Assembly: GCA_016932385.1 (NCBI GenBank) | Contig: JAFGCY010000096.1 | Location: 62,001 to 126,000, forward strand | Direction: 5' to 3' | DNA from: a bacterium | GTDB taxonomy: Bacteria > 4484-113 > JAFGCY01 | DNA length: 64,000 bases | Shown here: one piece after another, positions 5,233 through 64,000 of the stretch | How positions within the stretch are numbered: the first letter of the stretch is position 1 | How the letters are laid out: each line of letters opens with the position of its first letter | Program-made: the position numbers and the translations under genes | Notes under the pieces: generated by a model | The model's input: only the letters and a program-made list of their open reading frames with translations | Told to the model about the DNA's origin: nothing | Databases searched by the model: none

Positions 5233-6053
5233 GCCGCCCTCCGCATGGCTTGGCGTAACACGAGAAAGACGAACTGAGGCAGCATCCCCAGCCGTTTGAA
5301 CCGGGACAAGTCCTGCATTGAGCGGTAGGCCCATTCCAGCCCCGTGCCGCGCATCCACATCGGCGCGCGGCTGCGCTTGCCGGCGAAGACCTCCAGTGCT
5401 CCACCGACGCCGACCATGATCGGCACCTGCAGTTCGTTACGATGTTCCGCGATAAACCGCTCCTGTTTCGGGCAGCCCATTCCCACGAGCAACAGATCCG
5501 GCTGGGCATTTCTGATCCGCTCGACCATCATCCGTTCTTCTGACGACGTGAAATAGCCGTCCGCTGTTCCAACGACCGCCAGGCCCGGCAGCTGCGCGCT
5601 GATCCGCTCCCCTGCGGTTTGGGCGATGCCCTCCTCCGAACCCAGCAGATAGACCCGCCCCTGATACTTGGCCAGCTTGGCCATCAGGTCGAAGGCCAGA
5701 TCGATGCCGGGGTAGCGATGCACGGCGTTTTTGCGCAGCATACGGGCGGCCCAGGTCAGACCGACACCGTCGGAGACGTACATGTCTCCGCGCCGCAATA
5801 CCTTTTGTGCATCAGGCTCGCGCTGCGCCGCAAGAATCATTTCGGCGTTAAGAGTGACCACATGCGTCTGAACCCTTGCTTCAAAAAGCTGCCAGAGCAG
5901 CTCCAGCACATCCCGAGGTTCACCGACGCATAGCGGGTAACCCAACACCTCCGATACTTGTATTTGCGCGCCCACGCCGCCCACCTCAGCTGGGCAGTTC
6001 ATATCTGCATTATCGAAATTGCTCAATTGCGAGTTAAACGCGCCGATAATCAT
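5229..6053 (-). CDS. WecG/TagA/CpsF family glycosyltransferase
   Basis: The 274-residue frame carries the WecG/TagA (GT26) landmarks: VTLNAEMILAA, MYVSDGVGLTWAAR, MGCPKQERFI, VGVGGALEVFAGKRSRAP and the C-terminal GLEWAYRSMQDLSR. Members add ManNAc or related sugars to lipid-linked acceptors on the cytoplasmic face, in enterobacterial common antigen, teichoic acid or exopolysaccharide pathways. No other polysaccharide gene is next to it, so the substrate is unknown. It is coupled to ftsE through a GTGA overlap. The start is uncertain: ATG 6053 has no ribosome site, ATG 6002 has GATAAT exactly 6 nt upstream (possible leaderless start), and an internal GTG follows a GAGGTG. Confidence 0.9.
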   Translation of the reverse strand: MIIGAFNSQLSNFDNADMNCPAEVGGVGAQIQVSEVLGYPLCVGEPRDVLELLWQLFEARVQTHVVTLNAEMILAAQREPDAQKVLRRGDMYVSDGVGLTWAARMLRKNAVHRYPGIDLAFDLMAKLAKYQGRVYLLGSEEGIAQTAGERISAQLPGLAVVGTADGYFTSSEERMMVERIRNAQPDLLLVGMGCPKQERFIAEHRNELQVPIMVGVGGALEVFAGKRSRAPMWMRGTGLEWAYRSMQDLSRFKRLGMLPQFVFLVLRQAMRRAA

Positions 6054-12445: not shown

Positions 12446-12673
12446 TCAGGCCTCGCCGATCATGCCCTTGCGGTACCAGGCGGCACCGGCGCACAGGATC
12501 ACGACAACCGGCAAGGCCAGCCCGTTGGCCAGTTGCTTGGCGGTCAGCACGTCGTAATGGCCGAACGGCGACCGCCAGTCCACGAATGCCACGGGGAAGC
12601 CTTTGTCGATTCCCAACAAGACATAGGCCAGGTAGATGACCGCCAGAATGATGATGATCATCATGTCTTTCAT
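12446..12673 (-). CDS. Small two-helix membrane protein, unknown function
   Basis: A 75-residue protein with two membrane segments (about 4-21, very Ile-rich, and about 49-66) joined by a soluble loop containing DWRSPFGHYDVLTAKQLANG. I do not recognise a family. It is supported as a gene by its promoter: TGCTAGAAT on the minus strand (TAGAAT at 12680-12685) ends exactly 6 nt before the ATG, with no room for a ribosome-binding site, so it looks leaderless. It is divergent from the dUTPase gene. Confidence 0.7.
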   Translation of the reverse strand: MKDMMIIIILAVIYLAYVLLGIDKGFPVAFVDWRSPFGHYDVLTAKQLANGLALPVVVILCAGAAWYRKGMIGEA

Positions 12674-12679
12674 GGCTTG

Positions 12680-12685
12680 ATTCTA
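12680..12685 (-). promoter_or_regulatory. Extended -10 box, leaderless start
   Basis: Reads TAGAAT on the minus strand, preceded by TGC, and ends 6 nt before ATG 12673. The predicted transcription start coincides with the start codon. Confidence 0.6.
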
Positions 12686-12732
12686 GCAAATCGCGGTGCG
12701 CGCGGCGTGACGGCGGATCTTCCGGAACCGTC

Positions 12733-12738
12733 TAGAAT
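12733..12738 (+). promoter_or_regulatory. -10 box, leaderless start of the dUTPase gene
   Basis: TAGAAT ends 6 nt before ATG 12745. No Shine-Dalgarno is present. It is the mirror arrangement of the divergent gene 60 nt away. Confidence 0.6.
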
Positions 12739-12744
12739 AAGCCG

Positions 12745-13245
12745 ATGCTAAGCCTGTTGACCGACCTCGAATTCCCCGGCGCTCCGGCGCCGGACCTGCA
12801 ACGCCAGCCGGCGGGCTTCGACCTGACCTGCGCGCAAATCGCCCGTTTCACCGGCACCGGCGCGATCGACCTGACGAACTCCCGGCGCGAACTGCCGGCG
12901 CTGTCGCCGCTGGCCTGGCCGCCTGCCTCTGCCGCCGCCGAGTCCGTCTCGCTGGTTCTGGACCCGGCTGGCTATCTGGTTACATATAACGAAGAAATCG
13001 CCGTACCGGTTGATTGCGCCGGCATCGTCCTGCCGCGCAGTTCGCTGATGCGTTGCGGCGCGACGCTGCACAGCGCGTTGTGGGATCCCGGCTACCGCGG
13101 CCGGGGCCAGGGCCTGCTGACCGTCTTCAGCTCGTTGAGGCTGTATCGCGACGCGCGGATCGGCCAGTTCATTCTGCTGCGACTGGAGGCCCAGGCCGAC
13201 AGGACCTACGACGGCCAGTACCAAGGTGAGAACCTCGACCGCTAG
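12745..13245 (+). CDS. dut: dUTPase/dCTP deaminase superfamily nucleotidohydrolase
   Basis: The 166-residue protein matches the archaeal-type dUTP diphosphatase branch. It has the LPRSSLMRCGATLHSALWDPGY stretch in two adjacent motifs (substrate phosphate and uracil binding), GRGQGLLTVF, ARIGQFILLRLEA and the C-terminal YDGQYQGE. Such enzymes hydrolyse dUTP to dUMP and keep uracil out of DNA. A dCTP deaminase role is less likely because the deaminase-type Glu region is not evident. The start is supported by the leaderless -10 box. The stop overlaps that of the convergent CsgG-like gene through a shared CTAG. Confidence 0.82.
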   Translation: MLSLLTDLEFPGAPAPDLQRQPAGFDLTCAQIARFTGTGAIDLTNSRRELPALSPLAWPPASAAAESVSLVLDPAGYLVTYNEEIAVPVDCAGIVLPRSSLMRCGATLHSALWDPGYRGRGQGLLTVFSSLRLYRDARIGQFILLRLEAQADRTYDGQYQGENLDR

Positions 13246-25241: not shown

Positions 25242-25255
25242 CGCCAAAGGCGTGC

Positions 25256-25261
25256 TATCAT
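25256..25261 (+). promoter_or_regulatory. Extended -10 box, leaderless start of suhB
   Basis: TATCAT preceded by TGC, ending exactly 6 nt before the GTG start. Confidence 0.55.
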
Positions 25262-25267
25262 CGGCGC

Positions 25268-26098
25268 GTGAATATCACTGAGCTGCACCGTTTGATGAGC
25301 ACCGCCGCCCAGGCGGCGCACTTGGCCGGCCACGTGCTGGACAGCTATTTCCAGCGTCTGGATAGCTCATTGATCGAGAGTAAAAGCACGGCGGTCGACC
25401 TGGTCACCGCCGCCGACCGCGACGCTGAACAGGTGATCCGCGAGGAACTGGCGCAGGTCTATCCTGAGCTGGGATTCATCGGTGAGGAATCCGCGCCGGC
25501 CGAGCCCAGTTGTGACGGCGATTATTGCTGGGTGGTCGACCCGCTCGACGGCACCAGCAACTTCGTCTGCGGCCTACCGATCTGGTCCGTGTCGATCGCC
25601 CTGTGCCAGGCTACGGCCGCCGGTTACGATCCCCTGGCCGGCGTGGTCTACGCGCCGCAGCTCAACAAGATCTGGACGGCGGTGCGGGGTCTGGGAGCCT
25701 GGCTCAACGCCGCGCCGATCCGCGTCCGCCCCGCCCCGCCGGGCGGCGGCCTGGAGAATGCGATGATCGCCACCGGCTTTCCCTATACGGTCACGGCCAG
25801 CGGGGATTCCACCAACCTCGACAACTTTTCCAACATGCAGCGCCGGTTCCACAAAATCCGCCGGCTGGGCTCGGCCGCGATCGACCTGGCGTTCGTCGCC
25901 GACGGAACCTACGACGGCATCTGGGAGCTGGGCCTGAAAATCTGGGATATCGCCGCCGGCCAGTTGCTGATCAGCGAGGCCGGCGGGCTGTTCCGGCGGG
26001 TCCAGCTTGATCACTTCAATCCCGAAGTGCATATCATCGCCGCCGCCACTGCCGAGTTGATGCAGACCATGCAGTCCACTTTGGTTTTCCCCGCATAA
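25268..26098 (+). CDS. suhB: Inositol monophosphatase family protein
   Basis: The 276-residue enzyme has all signatures of the lithium-sensitive phosphatases: GFIGEES (metal ligand Glu), WVVDPLDGTSNFVCGLP (second motif with three metal Asp/Thr residues) and LKIWDIAAGQLLISEAGG at the C-terminus. Likely substrate is inositol monophosphate or a related sugar phosphate; E. coli SuhB also has an rRNA antitermination role, which cannot be judged here. I place the start at GTG 25268 because of the -10 box 6 nt upstream; the frame is open to 25184 inside the preceding gene. Confidence 0.92.
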   Translation: MNITELHRLMSTAAQAAHLAGHVLDSYFQRLDSSLIESKSTAVDLVTAADRDAEQVIREELAQVYPELGFIGEESAPAEPSCDGDYCWVVDPLDGTSNFVCGLPIWSVSIALCQATAAGYDPLAGVVYAPQLNKIWTAVRGLGAWLNAAPIRVRPAPPGGGLENAMIATGFPYTVTASGDSTNLDNFSNMQRRFHKIRRLGSAAIDLAFVADGTYDGIWELGLKIWDIAAGQLLISEAGGLFRRVQLDHFNPEVHIIAAATAELMQTMQSTLVFPA

Positions 26099-31124: not shown

Positions 31125-31130
31125 TAAACT
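31125..31130 (+). promoter_or_regulatory. -10 box, leaderless start of 31137
   Basis: TAAACT ends exactly 6 nt before ATG 31137; no ribosome-binding site is present. Confidence 0.5.
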
Positions 31131-31136
31131 CATCCG

Positions 31137-32330
31137 ATGCCATATTTCCCGGAAGCGCCACCGGCACCGCCGGTCGAACCGGCCGGTGACATCGAGCAGT
31201 TCGCGGCGGAATACCGCGCCTCCCTGCCGATCACCGGCAAATTCATCTACCTGAACCACGCCAGCGTCGGCCCGCTCTCGGACTGGGTTGTCGCCGCGGC
31301 GGCGGAGCAGTTCACCCAGCAGCAGATGGACCTGACCGTCACCCAGGACGAGTGGTTCAACGGCTGGCGCCTGGCGCGCCAGCGCATCGGCGAGTTGATC
31401 AACACCAGCAAGGACAACATCTGCATTGTCCCCAACACCTGGGCCGGGCTGGCCCGTGCTTTTTCCGCCCTGCCCCTCGGCCCGGAGGATGAGGTGCTGT
31501 TTCCCACCGACGAGTTTCCCAGCCTGTATTTCGCGCTCAGTGAACTGCGGGCGCGCGGCTGCGCCGTCCGCGCCGTGGAGTCGGGCGCCGGCGACGGCGT
31601 CGTACGTACGGCGGACCTTCTCGCGGCCCTCGGACCCCGCACGAAGCTGGTCGCCACCAGCTGGGTCAATTTCTTCCACGGCTTCAAGCACGATCTGGAC
31701 GCCCTCGGCGCGGCCTGCCGGGCCAACGGGACCTGGCTCGTCGTCGACGCGATCCAGGGACTGGGCCAACTGGCGCTGGATGTCGAGAAAACCGGCGTGC
31801 ATTTCGTCTCCTGCAACGGCGCCAAGTGGCTGTGCTCGCCGCTCGGCAGTGGCTTCTTATACGTCGCGCCGGATGTGCCACTGGAGATCACGCCGCGGCT
31901 GGAGGGCTGGTTCTCGATGGAACTCAACCACGACCAATATACCGATCGCGCGATCCAGCCCAAGGCCAACGCCAACCGCTTCGGCACGGGCACCGTCCCG
32001 CTGGCCAACACCTACGGCCTGCGTCGGTCCTGCGAGGTCCTGCTGGCCGCCGGGCCAAAACGGGCCGAGGCGCGCGCGCTCAAACTGGCGGAGACGATAG
32101 CCGCGGCCACCGTCGACGCGGGGATCCGGCTGGTTTCCGACCGGATCAACGGACCCTCGGCGATCGTCAGCATGAAGTTAGCCGACTGCCCGGCCCTGCC
32201 GGACGCCTTGAAGGCCCGGCGCGTGGCGTTTTCCGTGCGGGAAGGCGCGGTGCGCTTAAGCCCGCACTGGTATTCGGACCAGGCCGAAGTCGAAATCGTC
32301 AACGCGATCATCCGCCAGCACGGCCCCTGA
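31137..32330 (+). CDS. Class V aminotransferase family PLP enzyme
   Basis: The 397-residue enzyme has the class V fold: YLNHASVGPLSDWV near the N-terminus, a VPNTWAGLARAFSALPL phosphate-binding region, the PLP Asp in WLVVDAIQGLGQLALDV and the Schiff-base Lys in VSCNGAKWLCSPLGSGFLY. The C-terminal small domain ends SVREGAVRLSPHWYS. It lacks the SufS/IscS catalytic Cys loop, so it is more likely an isopenicillin-epimerase-like or alanine/serine-type enzyme than a desulfurase. Substrate unknown. Confidence 0.85.
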   Translation: MPYFPEAPPAPPVEPAGDIEQFAAEYRASLPITGKFIYLNHASVGPLSDWVVAAAAEQFTQQQMDLTVTQDEWFNGWRLARQRIGELINTSKDNICIVPNTWAGLARAFSALPLGPEDEVLFPTDEFPSLYFALSELRARGCAVRAVESGAGDGVVRTADLLAALGPRTKLVATSWVNFFHGFKHDLDALGAACRANGTWLVVDAIQGLGQLALDVEKTGVHFVSCNGAKWLCSPLGSGFLYVAPDVPLEITPRLEGWFSMELNHDQYTDRAIQPKANANRFGTGTVPLANTYGLRRSCEVLLAAGPKRAEARALKLAETIAAATVDAGIRLVSDRINGPSAIVSMKLADCPALPDALKARRVAFSVREGAVRLSPHWYSDQAEVEIVNAIIRQHGP

Positions 32331-34396: not shown

Positions 34397-35509
34397 ATGA
34401 ACAACCCGCCGATTGTGGTAGTTGTCGACGACGAACCTGCGATCCTGGACCTGATCCAGGCGCAGTTGGCCGCGGAAAATTACGACATCCGCCCCTACGC
34501 CAGCGGCACGCTTCTACTGGACGACCTTGAAATCCTGGCCACCGCCGACTTGTTCTTGCTGGATGTGATGATGCCGGCTATTTCCGGCTTCGAGCTTTGC
34601 CAGGTGATCCGTGAACGGCGTTCGTCATTTGCCCCGATCATTCTGGTCACGGCACTCGGCGATGTGGAACACAAGGTTCGCGGGCTCAACGCCGGCGCCG
34701 ACGACTTCCTGACCAAGCCCACCAACACCGCGGAGATGAAAGCGCGGATCCGCGCCAACTTGCGCGCGCGCGAATACTACTGCCAGCTGGAGCTGGCCAA
34801 ACAGGATGTGGAACGCTTGTCGCTGTTCAAGGACAAGCTGATGGACATGATCGTCCATGACATCCGCAACCCGCTCGGCTCGGTCGCGCTGTCGATCCAG
34901 CTGATGGGCGACCCGCCGAACCCGGCCAAGGTCGATCCGACCACCTGGCAGCTGACCGGCCGGCAGGTGGACTTCGCGCTCGAGATGTGCGAGCAGCTGC
35001 TGGATATCAAGCGCCAGCAGTCCAACGAACTGGAAGTGCTTCCCTATGTCGTCCACCTGCGGGAAACGGTCAACCAGGCGGTGCAGCCGCTGTTGCTCTT
35101 CGCCCGTGAGCGGAAAGTCGAGATCAAGTCCGACATCGAGGACCTGACCTTCGAGTCCGATGAACGCCTGCTAACGCGTATCCTGATGAACCTACTGAAC
35201 AACGCCGTGAAGTTTTCGCCCGGCGAAGACGCGGTGGAGATCAAGGGCCGGCGCGCCGGCGACCAGGTGGTGATCACCGTCGTCGATCACGGTCCGGGTA
35301 TCCCGCACGAATTCCAGGACAAGATCTTCGAGCTGTTCAGCACCGCCGAAGTCAGCCGGCAGGTCCGCGGGTACGGGATCGGCCTGGCGTTCTGCAGCAT
35401 GGCCGTGCAGTCGCTGGGCGGCTTCATCACAGTGGAGAGCGAACCCGGCCAGGGCAGCCGCTTCATCGTCACCCTGCCCTGGGTTGAAGCTCGCGAAGAG
35501 GAATTCTAA
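34397..35509 (+). CDS. Receiver-histidine kinase hybrid (REC-HisKA-HATPase)
   Basis: The 370-residue protein starts with a receiver domain (1-125: VVVVDDEP, phospho-acceptor Asp in FLLDVMMP, VTALGD, conserved Lys in LTKPTN), followed by HisKA (acceptor in IVHDIRNPLGS) and HATPase (LMNLLNNAVKFS, DHGPGIP, GYGIGLAFC). Such proteins act as intermediate kinases whose activity is set by their own receiver. ATG 34397 has GAGG 5 nt upstream. The stop overlaps that of the convergent MATE gene. Confidence 0.95.
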   Translation: MNNPPIVVVVDDEPAILDLIQAQLAAENYDIRPYASGTLLLDDLEILATADLFLLDVMMPAISGFELCQVIRERRSSFAPIILVTALGDVEHKVRGLNAGADDFLTKPTNTAEMKARIRANLRAREYYCQLELAKQDVERLSLFKDKLMDMIVHDIRNPLGSVALSIQLMGDPPNPAKVDPTTWQLTGRQVDFALEMCEQLLDIKRQQSNELEVLPYVVHLRETVNQAVQPLLLFARERKVEIKSDIEDLTFESDERLLTRILMNLLNNAVKFSPGEDAVEIKGRRAGDQVVITVVDHGPGIPHEFQDKIFELFSTAEVSRQVRGYGIGLAFCSMAVQSLGGFITVESEPGQGSRFIVTLPWVEAREEEF

Positions 35510-36939
35510 ACCTCGGCCAGTTTGATCCGCTGCCACTTGCCGCTGCGAAATCGCAGATAACTCAGCGTCGCCTCGACGTAGACCGAAAGTGTCATCGCCC
35601 ACCAGACGCCGTCAAGTCCCAGCCCCAGTCCCAGTCCCGTGCCCCAGATATCGGACAGAGCCATGAAGGCCACCAGCGGAATCCGCACCAGCCACATCGA
35701 CGTCAGCGTGATCAACGCCGCGACGCGCGTGTCGCCGCTGCCGCGCAACACGCCGTTCATCGTCATGGCGACGGCCAGGCCCGGCAGGCACAGTGCGATG
35801 ATCCTGAGGAAGCTCGCCGCCACCGGAGCCACCTCGGGCGCGTTGTGCGCGATGAAGACGGCGATGAACGCCTGCGGGAACAGGTACAGCAATGTCCCCA
35901 TCGAGAGCATGATCAGCTCGCTGAAGCCCAGGCAATATAGCGCGCTGGTGCGCGCCTGCTCGGGTTGCTCGGCGCCCAGGTTCTGCCCGACCAGCGTGCT
36001 GGCCGCCACGGAAAAGGCGAAGGCCGGCATGAAGGCCAGGCTCTCGGCCATCAGCCCGACTACCAGCGCGCCTTGCCCGACCACGCTATTCGGCAGATAG
36101 GTAATGAGCTTGATTAACAGCAGCATCGCCAGCGAGCGCGCCACCACTTGCAGCGATGCCGGCAACCCCAGCCTGAGCATCTCCCAGGTCCGCCGGAGCG
36201 GCGCGACCAGGATGTTCGCGTCGAAGGCAATCGCCTTCTGCTTGAGCAGCATCACGATCGCCACCGTGGAGGTCAGCGTGACGGTCGCCGATGTCGACCA
36301 GGCGCAGCCGGCCACCTCGTAGCGCTGGATCAGCAAGTAGTTGCCGACGAAGTTGGCGATGTTGGCGATCACCAGCAGCCACATCGGGTACAACGTCCGG
36401 CCCAGGCTGTTGAAGACGCTGATCACGGCGAACTGCGCGCCCATGCCGGCCATGCCGATGAAGATCACGCGCATGTAATCCCAGGCATACTGCTTGGTCA
36501 GCACGGCCAGCTGCGGATCCAGGTCGGCGGCCTCGCTGTGAACCATGTATTTCACCGGTCCCCCGCCGATCAGAAGCCCCAGGATCATCATCAGCACACC
36601 GGCGATCAGCCCGGCGATCACGCCGATGCTGGCGTAGGCCCGGGCGCGGTCGTGGTCCTGGGCCCCGGTGAACCGCGCGACATAGGCAGTGATACCAGCG
36701 CCCAAGCCCATGAACAGCGCGCTGACCAGCCAGATACTCTGCCGGCCCACCGCCAGGCTCGCCAGGGCCGCCCCGCCCAGGCCGCTGATCATCCGGACGT
36801 CGACGAAACCGATCAGCGTCTGCAGGGCGTTGGTGGCCGTGACCGGCAGCGACAGCCACAACACCGTACGCGCCAGTTCGCGGCCGGACGACCAACGCGT
36901 CAACTGGATGTTTTTATGGGAAAACCAGGGCTGCGCCAT
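35506..36939 (-). CDS. MATE family efflux transporter
   Basis: A 477-residue inner-membrane protein with about 12 hydrophobic segments in two homologous halves. The first half opens LPVTATNALQTLIGFVDVRMISGLGGAALA, a form of the MATE entry motif, and the second contains GLMAESLAFMPAFAFSVAASTLVGQNLGA, the classic MATE repeat. MATE pumps export drugs or organic cations with Na+ or H+. Substrate unknown. The start ATG 36939 is preceded by TAGTAT with a 7-nt gap; the longer frame to 36996 lacks any site. Confidence 0.92.
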   Translation of the reverse strand: MAQPWFSHKNIQLTRWSSGRELARTVLWLSLPVTATNALQTLIGFVDVRMISGLGGAALASLAVGRQSIWLVSALFMGLGAGITAYVARFTGAQDHDRARAYASIGVIAGLIAGVLMMILGLLIGGGPVKYMVHSEAADLDPQLAVLTKQYAWDYMRVIFIGMAGMGAQFAVISVFNSLGRTLYPMWLLVIANIANFVGNYLLIQRYEVAGCAWSTSATVTLTSTVAIVMLLKQKAIAFDANILVAPLRRTWEMLRLGLPASLQVVARSLAMLLLIKLITYLPNSVVGQGALVVGLMAESLAFMPAFAFSVAASTLVGQNLGAEQPEQARTSALYCLGFSELIMLSMGTLLYLFPQAFIAVFIAHNAPEVAPVAASFLRIIALCLPGLAVAMTMNGVLRGSGDTRVAALITLTSMWLVRIPLVAFMALSDIWGTGLGLGLGLDGVWWAMTLSVYVEATLSYLRFRSGKWQRIKLAEV

Positions 36940-36946
36940 TGCATCA

Positions 36947-36952
36947 ATACTA
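36947..36952 (-). promoter_or_regulatory. -10 box, leaderless start of the MATE gene
   Basis: TAGTAT on the minus strand ends 7 nt before ATG 36939. No Shine-Dalgarno. Confidence 0.4.
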
Positions 36953-37310: not shown

Positions 37311-37741
37311 CGCGACTGGATCAAGGCCTGGACGATATTGAGCAGCCGGTTGATGTTGACGGGCTTGGTTACGCACTCCGAAGCCCCGGAAGCCAGGGCC
37401 ATCGTCACCGCTTCGAGATCCATCCGGCCGGAGATAAAAATCACCTTCACCTCGGGCAGTTTTTCGCGGATTTTGATCAGGGTGCCGACGCCGTCCAGGC
37501 CCGGCATATCGTAGTCCAGCGAGATCAGATCGGGCATGAACGACACGGCCAGATCTACGGCTTTCAGCCCCGAATCCGCGGTGCGGACTTCATAGCCCTG
37601 CGATTGGAGTACCGAGCTGAAATTGCGCAGAAATGGCAGCGAGTCATCGACAAGCATCACCCGGCCCAGATTACCTCCGCTCGATCCACCACCCCGTACC
37701 GCGGAGTAATCGTATAGTTTGGGACACTGCCAGATTTTCAT
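37307..37741 (-). CDS. Single-domain response regulator
   Basis: A 144-residue protein with a receiver domain from about residue 26: VMLVDDSLPFL (acidic pair), phospho-acceptor Asp in LISLDYDMPGLDG, the Ser in VIFISGRMD and the Lys in VTKPVNI. The first 25 residues (WQCPKLYDYSAVRGGGSSGG) are a Gly/Ser-rich extension of unknown role. There is no output domain, so it works as a phosphorelay or CheY-like element. AAGGAG lies 11 nt before the ATG. No kinase is adjacent on the same strand. Confidence 0.92.
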   Translation of the reverse strand: MKIWQCPKLYDYSAVRGGGSSGGNLGRVMLVDDSLPFLRNFSSVLQSQGYEVRTADSGLKAVDLAVSFMPDLISLDYDMPGLDGVGTLIKIREKLPEVKVIFISGRMDLEAVTMALASGASECVTKPVNINRLLNIVQALIQSR

Positions 37742-41068: not shown

Positions 41069-41114
41069 GCTGATTTAAAGTTATGGTACAAAACCCGGCC
41101 GGATGGTCGGCTGC

Positions 41115-41120
41115 TACACT
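41115..41120 (+). promoter_or_regulatory. Extended -10 box, leaderless start of the uracil-DNA glycosylase
   Basis: TACACT preceded by TGC, ending exactly 6 nt before ATG 41127. Confidence 0.55.
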
Positions 41121-41126
41121 AACCGC

Positions 41127-41693
41127 ATGCATGATGTTCCTGCGGACATGCTGGCCAAGATCGCAAGCGAGATCCACGCCTGTACCGCCTGTCCGCTGCA
41201 CGCAACGCGCACGCATGCCGTACCCGGCGAGGGTCCGCCCGAGGCCCGCGTGGTGTTTATCGGCGAAGCGCCCGGCGGCGACGAAGACCTGCAGGGCCGC
41301 CCCTTCGTCGGCCGCTCCGGCCAGCTGTTGCGCAAGACGATCCGGGAAACGGGCTGGCGCGAGGATGAAGTATTCATCGGCAATGTGCTTAAGTGCCGCC
41401 CCCCCAACAACGCCGATCCGGTTCCCGAGCAAGTCGAGGCCTGTCGCCACTTCCTGATGGCGCAGCTGGTGATCCTGCGGCCCAAGGTGATCGTCACGCT
41501 GGGACGCCACAGCCTGAACCTGCTGATTAGCCCCGAGCTTAAGATCACCAAGATCCGCGGCCAGCACATCAAAAAAAACGGCCAGCTGTACCTGCCGACC
41601 TACCATCCGGCGATGATCCTGCGCAACGCGCGTTTGGAGCCGGAATTCCGCCACGATTTGGCCAAGGCCAAAGCCCTCTGCGAACGGAGTTAA
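41127..41693 (+). CDS. Uracil-DNA glycosylase, family 4 (4Fe-4S)
   Basis: The 188-residue DNA-repair enzyme has the family-4 signature: CTACPLHATRTHAVPGEG (first two cluster cysteines), FIGEAPGGDEDLQGRPFVGRSGQLL (catalytic pocket), NVLKCRPPNN (third Cys), CRHFL (fourth Cys) and the late LPTYHPAMILRN motif. It removes uracil from DNA. ATG 41127 is favoured by the -10 box 6 nt upstream; the frame is open to 41103. Together with the dUTPase at 12745 it forms the usual double defence against uracil, though the genes are far apart. Confidence 0.95.
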   Translation: MHDVPADMLAKIASEIHACTACPLHATRTHAVPGEGPPEARVVFIGEAPGGDEDLQGRPFVGRSGQLLRKTIRETGWREDEVFIGNVLKCRPPNNADPVPEQVEACRHFLMAQLVILRPKVIVTLGRHSLNLLISPELKITKIRGQHIKKNGQLYLPTYHPAMILRNARLEPEFRHDLAKAKALCERS

Positions 41694-62338: not shown

Positions 62339-62458
62339 CCGAAGAACGCCGCGGGATGCCAGTCCGGTTCTCCACAATCTATCCACAACCAAATCAACAC
62401 TGTCTTATTGATAAGCAGCGCTCAACTATGACTTCATTAACCAAATTTTCACCAGTGC

Positions 62459-62464
62459 TATACT
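62459..62464 (+). promoter_or_regulatory. Extended -10 box, leaderless start of 62471
   Basis: TATACT preceded by TGC, ending 6 nt before GTG 62471; TTAACC lies 16 nt upstream as a fair -35. Confidence 0.6.
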
Positions 62465-62470
62465 CAGCGC

Positions 62471-64000
62471 GTGCAGGAAGGTCCGAAGCTCTACAAGCCC
62501 ACCATCTGGCGCCGGTTGCTGATCATTGCACTGATTAGCGCGATCGTGCCGATCGCGATCCTGGCGCTGGTAACCGTTCTCGCTCCGGCCGGACCCTCGG
62601 GCAGCGGCAACCAGCTGAGCTCGCAGGTTTCGCAGGAGACCAAGCAGCAGCTCGTGCAGACCGCCGAGGCCCGGGCCCTGGGGATCAACACGCGCCTGGC
62701 GCGGATCGGTTATTCGGTCAAATTGCTCGGATCCTACGCTGAGGAAGTCCTGATCTCGCCGGCGGTGTTCGCCGAGAGGATCGTGCCGGCGAAACCGGCG
62801 GAGGGCGAGGCCGCCGCGGAAGAGGGCACGGCGTCGGTCGGCCAGACCGCCATCGACAATCCGCTCTTCTACACGCAGGGCGAAGACGGCGCGATCCGCA
62901 AGCTGATTAACGACGACAAGTCCGCGGTCTACTTCGCCGCCACGGCGACGGGCGAGTTTTCAGCCTACGATCTGCAGCGGTTGCACGCTTCGGCGATTCT
63001 CGATCCGCTGCTGATCGAGCCGGTAGCCAGCGAACCGCTGGTGCTGCAGTCCTTCATGCTGACGCATGACAAGCTGCTTAGGACCTATCCGTTCCTGGAT
63101 ATCTCGCTGTGGCCGCCGGACAAGGACCTGTCCAAGCCCGGCGAATGGTGGAACCCCGACAAGGCCAACGCGGACGGCCTGCTCTGGACCGCGCCCTACT
63201 TCAGCATCTACCAGCAGCGCTGGGTGACGGCCTGCATCACCGCCTGCTACGCCGGCGACCGCGTGGTCGCGGTGGTGGGTTGCGAGATCGACCTGGCCAA
63301 GCTGACCGAGGAAACGCTGGACTTCTCGCTCGGCGAGAACAGCATCAGCTGGCTGATGAAACCCTACCAGCGCAATGCCGAGGAGCCGCTACGGTGGCTC
63401 GTGATGTCGGCGCAGGACACCAGCCAGGAGCGGCTGGGCATCATTCCCTTCGACATGGCCACGGCGCCGACGGAAAAGGACGGCGACAAGCCGATCTTCG
63501 AGGAGGCTGACCTGCTGGGCCACGGGCGGGCCGAACTCGTCGCCAATCTGAAGCAGCAGATCGATTCCGGCACGACGAACGTCGGCACCGCGCTGCCCGC
63601 CGCCACCGCCATCGACACGGGCCAGGGCGACTTCATCATCATCGCGCCGATCCCGCAGGCCGGCTGGATCATCGGCGGCATCGTCCGCAATCCGGCCGTT
63701 GCCACGCTGGAGAACTTCGAGACCGGCGTGGAGTCCTGGGTACGCCAGCGGATGCTGATCGTGCTCGGGGTCGCCGTACTCGCCGTGTTGCTGGCCTTCG
63801 GCCTGGCCTGGTTCGAGGCCAACCGCATCGTGCAGCCGCTGAAGATCCTCACCGACAAGGTCCGGCTGGCCGCCGTCTCGCGCAAAACCTCGTCGGTCGC
63901 GATGGCGGATGAGGGCGAGATCGGCGCGCTGGCCCAGGTGATCCAGCAGCTGATCGACAAGACCACCGAGCGGCCCAACAACCATGCGCCGGTCGAACCC
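62471..64000 (+). CDS. Membrane sensor with large extracytoplasmic domain and HAMP-like region, C-terminus cut
   Basis: An uninterrupted frame of 510 codons runs from GTG 62471 off the right edge. It has TM1 (about 17-39), a large extracytoplasmic sensory region (about 40-430) with Cache-like features (YFSIYQQRWVTACITACYAGDRVVAVVGCEIDLAKL, then QGDFIIIAPIPQAGWIIGGIV), TM2 (about 434-455) and the start of a HAMP-like segment (ANRIVQPLKILTDKV, EGEIGALAQVIQQLI). The output domain, which may be a kinase, cyclase, phosphatase or chemoreceptor, lies beyond the window. The start rests on the -10 box 6 nt upstream. Confidence 0.82.
   Translation, partial: MQEGPKLYKPTIWRRLLIIALISAIVPIAILALVTVLAPAGPSGSGNQLSSQVSQETKQQLVQTAEARALGINTRLARIGYSVKLLGSYAEEVLISPAVFAERIVPAKPAEGEAAAEEGTASVGQTAIDNPLFYTQGEDGAIRKLINDDKSAVYFAATATGEFSAYDLQRLHASAILDPLLIEPVASEPLVLQSFMLTHDKLLRTYPFLDISLWPPDKDLSKPGEWWNPDKANADGLLWTAPYFSIYQQRWVTACITACYAGDRVVAVVGCEIDLAKLTEETLDFSLGENSISWLMKPYQRNAEEPLRWLVMSAQDTSQERLGIIPFDMATAPTEKDGDKPIFEEADLLGHGRAELVANLKQQIDSGTTNVGTALPAATAIDTGQGDFIIIAPIPQAGWIIGGIVRNPAVATLENFETGVESWVRQRMLIVLGVAVLAVLLAFGLAWFEANRIVQPLKILTDKVRLAAVSRKTSSVAMADEGEIGALAQVIQQLIDKTTERPNNHAPVEP

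Follow-up and report, generated by a model that had tools for sequence, protein, structure and literature searches.

A -10-like TANNNT box six nucleotides before start codons suggests a class of leaderless genes in a bacterium of candidate phylum UBP7

Results

The window studied here, i.e., the whole 64,000-nt stretch (64 kb, 62% GC), comes from a 3.70 Mb genome in 113 contigs, and at positions 12,446–13,245 carries two genes pointing away from each other. On the minus strand lies a gene for a 75-aa membrane protein without Pfam match (12446..12673), and on the plus strand a dCTP deaminase-like/dUTPase gene (dcd, 12745..13245, Pfam PF22769), both predicted to be leaderless. Each is preceded by the same putative -10 box, TAGAAT, located at 12680..12685 on the minus strand (with TGC at 12686–12688), 6 nt before the ATG at 12673, and at 12733..12738 on the plus strand, 6 nt before the ATG at 12745. 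Two relatives from the same family (G001 and G002) keep both boxes, at 6 nt (G001) and 7 nt (G002) for dcd, and as TACAAT (7 nt, G001) and TAAGAT (6 nt, G002) for the small membrane protein, whose orthologues adjoin dcd in both genomes. Since the 75-aa gene retains a box of its own in both relatives, two divergent promoters, each predicted to yield a leaderless mRNA, would share ~71 bp. In two further genera of the family, the 75-aa protein (37–39% identity) is likewise encoded divergently from dcd, so the small gene is conserved.

Four other plus-strand genes of the window, likewise predicted to be leaderless, have a candidate -10 box with the same 6-nt spacer: an inositol monophosphatase family gene (25268..26098, PF00459; TATCAT at 25256..25261, TGC at 25253–25255, GTG start), a class V aminotransferase (31137..32330, PF00266; TAAACT at 31125..31130, ATG start), a member of the uracil-DNA glycosylase (UDG) superfamily (41127..41693, PF03167; TACACT at 41115..41120, TGC at 41112–41114, ATG start), and a sensor-like gene with a weak Cache-domain match under the Pfam cut-off (62471..64000, continuing beyond the window end; TATACT at 62459..62464, TGC at 62456–62458, GTG start). 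To these can be added a MATE transporter on the minus strand (35506..36939, PF01554), in which TAGTAT (36947..36952) stands 7 nt before the ATG at 36939, and which is predicted to have either no leader or a 1-nt leader.

Reading the 60 nt upstream of each start codon recovered all six TANNNT boxes with a spacer of exactly 6 nt that the first-pass annotation had described, as well as the TGC directly 5' of four of them (12673 on the minus strand, 25268, 41127 and 62471) and the MATE box at 7 nt. The same six genes had been said to lack a Shine-Dalgarno (SD) site, and none of the six has an SD-like tetramer at 5–15 nt, a result that is largely mechanical as the box fills most of this space. A further candidate, GATAAT-N6 at the ATG at 6002 of a WecG family glycosyltransferase, was dropped: an earlier in-frame ATG exists at 6053, and the box was found in none of the four orthologues. 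Elsewhere in the window, the GTG start at 37660 (minus strand) combines TAATCT at 7 nt with an overlapping GGAGG, such that either mode is possible and the start itself uncertain, and an ATG upstream of it, at 37741 (minus strand), likewise has an SD-like motif.

Among relatives of the same family, a TANNNT box at 6–8 nt was kept in every orthologue found of dcd (2/2), the inositol monophosphatase (3/3; G001, G002 and G003), the class V aminotransferase (3/3, always at 6 nt), UDG (3/3, always TAAACT at 6 nt) and the sensor-like gene (3/3, always TATACT at 7 nt), with surrounding upstream sequences that were, judged by eye, much changed. For the MATE transporter, TATTAT at 7 nt was present in two of three orthologues, the two closest ones (G002 and G003). 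Beyond the family, UDG has TATAAT in G007 (6 nt) and G009 (8 nt), and the box is missing in G004 and G005, while dcd, box-type in G001 and G002, shows a clear SD site in the class-level relatives G007, G008 and G009 (loci L166–L170). These differences in start type suggest that the mode of a gene can change over time. Conservation appeared weaker in a reciprocal-best-hit comparison of box genes to box genes over the whole sample than for the genes of the window: with few pairs and noisy starts, it was borderline at best, with 4/13 vs. 5/57 for G001 (p = 0.055) and no box-to-box signal from G002 or G004, both with few pairs.

To evaluate the box beyond the window, 843 kb of the same genome (window included, 628 predicted genes) were scanned, with genes called by coding potential, no model of ribosome sites being used, and every ATG or GTG near a coding start scored for TANNNT at each distance. 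The first-pass annotation had proposed such a scan against shuffled upstream regions, and had named missing enrichment at 6–7 nt as evidence against its interpretation. Instead, TANNNT was found at exactly 6 nt in 86 genes, compared to 15.2 ± 4.0 in dinucleotide shuffles (z = 17.7), with smaller peaks of 36 genes at 7 nt and 29 genes at 8 nt (~15 in shuffles at each distance). The excess over shuffles at 6–8 nt amounts to 107 genes, or ~17% of all genes in the sample, a share estimated from this excess, as starts were assigned by a simple caller based on coding potential. Genome-wide, TGNTANNNT-N6-ATG had 86 matches, compared to 21 when the pattern was reversed, and pooling spacings of 0–30 left no excess (943 vs. 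963). A refined pattern, TANAAT-N5-Y-ATG, reached 128 matches vs. 12 in reversed-pattern controls. In 200 kb of Escherichia coli (90 genes from an under-trained caller), no peak was observed at 6 nt (2 vs. 2.5).

Boxes at 6 nt have a consensus of their own, with A at box position 4 in 78% and A or C at position 5 in 88%, the most frequent hexamers being TATAAT (21) and TACAAT (16) among 84 assigned. A G is found at -14 in 62% of them vs. 38% of control boxes, and the full TGN extension in 20/86 vs. 45/312 (p = 0.07, not significant), so that the extended -10 is only half borne out as a property of the class. No clear -35 element was detected (TTG at 17-bp spacing in 5/86 vs. 6/312; mean best -35 match of 2.92, and of 2.84 for controls), and beyond this slight TTG excess nothing favored a -35 as part of the class, which suggests that the boxes do not require one. 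Taken as sequence motifs, they look like extended -10 promoters of the form G-N-TA[T/C]A[A/C]T, with the -35 undetected.

The base preceding the start codon is also informative. Bacterial RNA polymerase favors a pyrimidine at -1 and a purine at +1, and a pyrimidine occupies -1 in 69/86 starts of the 6-nt class (80%) vs. 145/289 SD starts (50%, p = 5e-7), i.e., the pattern expected if transcription started on the first base of ATG or GTG. In the 7-nt and 8-nt spacer classes, the pyrimidine sits at -2 and not -1 (78% and 69%, respectively), which suggests starts one base earlier and 1-nt leaders. A G is frequent at -3 in these two classes in the window genome (56% and 52%).

Shine-Dalgarno initiation is common in the same genome, with an excess of SD-like motifs for about half of all genes and for more than three quarters of those packed tightly inside operons. 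None of the 86 starts with a box at 6 nt has GGAG, GAGG or AGGA at 5–15 nt, but as the box itself fills that space this absence is mostly mechanical, and we set it aside as independent evidence. The 16S rRNA 3' end reads ...GGATCACCTCCTT, the usual anti-SD, in G001 and G004 (the window genome's own 16S match is partial and stops short of the 3' end). Together with the SD-like excess, this suggests an organism using both modes, with leaderless genes as a predicted large minority. The two types also differ in genomic position: a divergent upstream neighbor is found for 62/136 box genes vs. 63/258 SD genes (p = 2e-5), and among genes with same-strand neighbors, 1/74 box genes overlaps the upstream gene vs. 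46/195 SD genes (p = 1e-6). This placement fits promoters better than translation signals.

The closest named relative of the organism is the MAG "bacterium isolate UBP7 HKST-UBA03" (64% identity in UDG), whose UDG locus (L001) contains exactly the core of the corresponding locus (L189) of G002, a genome from the same family as the window genome. On the strength of that record's title and of the kinship label of G002, the organism is thus assigned to the same family as HKST-UBA03, which places it in candidate phylum UBP7 and outside Deinococcus-Thermus. By the same shuffle test, TANNNT at 6 nt was enriched in G001 (37 vs. 3.4), G002 (19 vs. 1.7) and G004, which belongs to the same order (19 vs. 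4.6), with an excess corresponding to 15.5, 17.8, and 10.1% of genes, respectively. First calls from the under-trained caller comprised 13 genes for G007 and 39 for G009 (as well as the 90 for E. coli), and the first two genomes were redone with shorter training ORFs; for G009, this retrained caller gave boxes at 6 nt in 9/86 genes vs. ~1 at other spacings. The TANAAT-N5-Y-ATG pattern was enriched, to differing degrees, in 10/10 UBP7 genomes compared (524 vs. 56 in reversed-pattern controls), and as it was derived from the window genome, the other nine represent an independent test. The TG-extended pattern was in excess in relatives of the same family and order and not clearly enriched in G007 (45/37) or G009 (22/24), and may thus be a trait of the order and not of the whole phylum. 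Separately, G027 (same domain, 2.1 Mb) had 27 matches to TGNTANNNT-N6-ATG vs. 0 reversed, a ratio more extreme than in any other comparison genome, and is possibly another leaderless-rich lineage.

Discussion

The interpretation we favor, with a probability of roughly 0.9, is that these boxes are -10 elements directing transcription to start at, or within 1–2 nt of, the start codon, which would produce leaderless mRNAs. Exact spacing, a -10-like consensus with half of an extended -10, pyrimidine at -1, enrichment at divergent heads, avoidance of overlaps and conservation in orthologues of the window genes all argue for this reading, already put forward in the first-pass annotation. Mechanistically, RNA polymerase with the main sigma factor would bind the extended -10-like G-N-T-A-[T/C]-A-[A/C]-T without recognizable -35, transcription would begin on the A or G of ATG/GTG behind a preceding pyrimidine, and the ribosome would initiate at this 5'-terminal start codon without any leader. 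About one gene in six would be made leaderless, preferentially at the heads of transcription units, with operon-packed genes mostly relying on SD sites. That such mRNAs are translated we infer from their intact and conserved ORFs. The suggestion that leaderless translation is a "major mode" in this organism holds in so far as the predicted class is large (~15–18% of genes across the three sampled members of the family); SD initiation is nonetheless the commoner of the two, with its excess at about half of genes.

TANNNT is a loose motif with three fixed bases, and chance matches combined with a reader's choice of start codons could produce some of the boxes. The window alone has six at 6 nt among ~52 genes vs. 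1.3 expected (Poisson p ~0.002, for a spacing chosen post hoc), so one or two of them could be fortuitous. For the class as a whole, however, chance is refuted by the gap between observed and shuffled counts at 6 nt, by both reversed-pattern controls, and by the conservation of each window case in orthologues; outside the window, it may account for individual genes. Alternatively, the box could act in translation, as an AU-rich ribosome or S1 site of the type proposed for some non-SD genes, on mRNAs beginning further upstream. Nakagawa et al. (2017; PMC5397173) indeed note that S1 binding, and not promoters, could lie behind AT- or U-rich biases near -10. Yet in place of a diffuse A/U richness there is one particular hexamer held at a single exact spacing, accompanied by G at -14 and by a pyrimidine at -1. 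The boxes, unlike SD sites, are also concentrated at divergent heads and hardly ever precede genes that overlap an upstream one. Together, these features make a translational role very improbable.

A closer contender keeps the boxes as real -10 elements, but gives many transcripts, especially in the 7–8 nt classes, leaders of 1–3 nt or mixed 5' ends, with SD-independent initiation on these very short leaders. The smaller peaks at 7 and 8 nt, with their pyrimidine at -2 suggesting starts one base upstream, speak for it; in the dominant 6-nt class, the pyrimidine occupies -1, as a start on the codon's first base would predict, and we hold this version to be possible but rather unlikely.

A start directly behind a -10 box is a mechanism of known kind (Deinococcus, Mycobacterium). 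TA-led leaderless genes make up ~20% of genes in Actinobacteria and ~40% in Deinococcus-Thermus (Zheng et al., 2011; PMC3160421), and the UBP7 class resembles them in having a TA-like signal ~10 bp before the start, TAnnnT in form as in GC-rich genomes, above chance at a fixed distance of ~6–8 nt, and mixed with SD-led genes alongside a canonical anti-SD (as read in G001 and G004). It differs in the middle of the box, which is reported to give little information in their high-GC groups but at 62% GC carries a signal here at positions 4 and 5 (TANA[A/C]T), and UBP7 is not named in their list of leaderless lineages. Another parallel, described in Deinococcus-Thermus by Zhong et al. (2025; PMC12340547), is the -10-adjacent class, with TANNNT 6–7 bp before the start, no -35 needed, a second class with GGAG-type SD, and conservation between orthologues. 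The UBP7 genes share the box and its 6–7 bp distance from the ORF, and probably the dispensable -35, given that none was detected; they belong, however, to another phylum, comprise ~15–18% of genes vs. nearly one third in Deinococcus radiodurans, and are predicted from sequence. Bacterial genomes with leaderless transcription have also been classed with GeneMarkS-2, for a set of NCBI representative genomes (Lomsadze et al., 2018, as cited in PMC9581028). In the papers searched, we found no report of leaderless genes in UBP7, and this phylum as a carrier appears unreported.

It is likely that leaderless initiation from extended -10 promoters lacking a -35 is ancestral in UBP7 and strongest in the family of the window genome, with genes switching between leaderless and SD initiation over time. 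In practice, gene callers based on SD sites likely misplace some starts in these genomes, and a rule combining the box with its 6-nt spacing would help to correct them. More broadly, these results would add a candidate phylum to the lineages with a substantial leaderless class, and bear on whether this mode of initiation is ancestral or evolved repeatedly.
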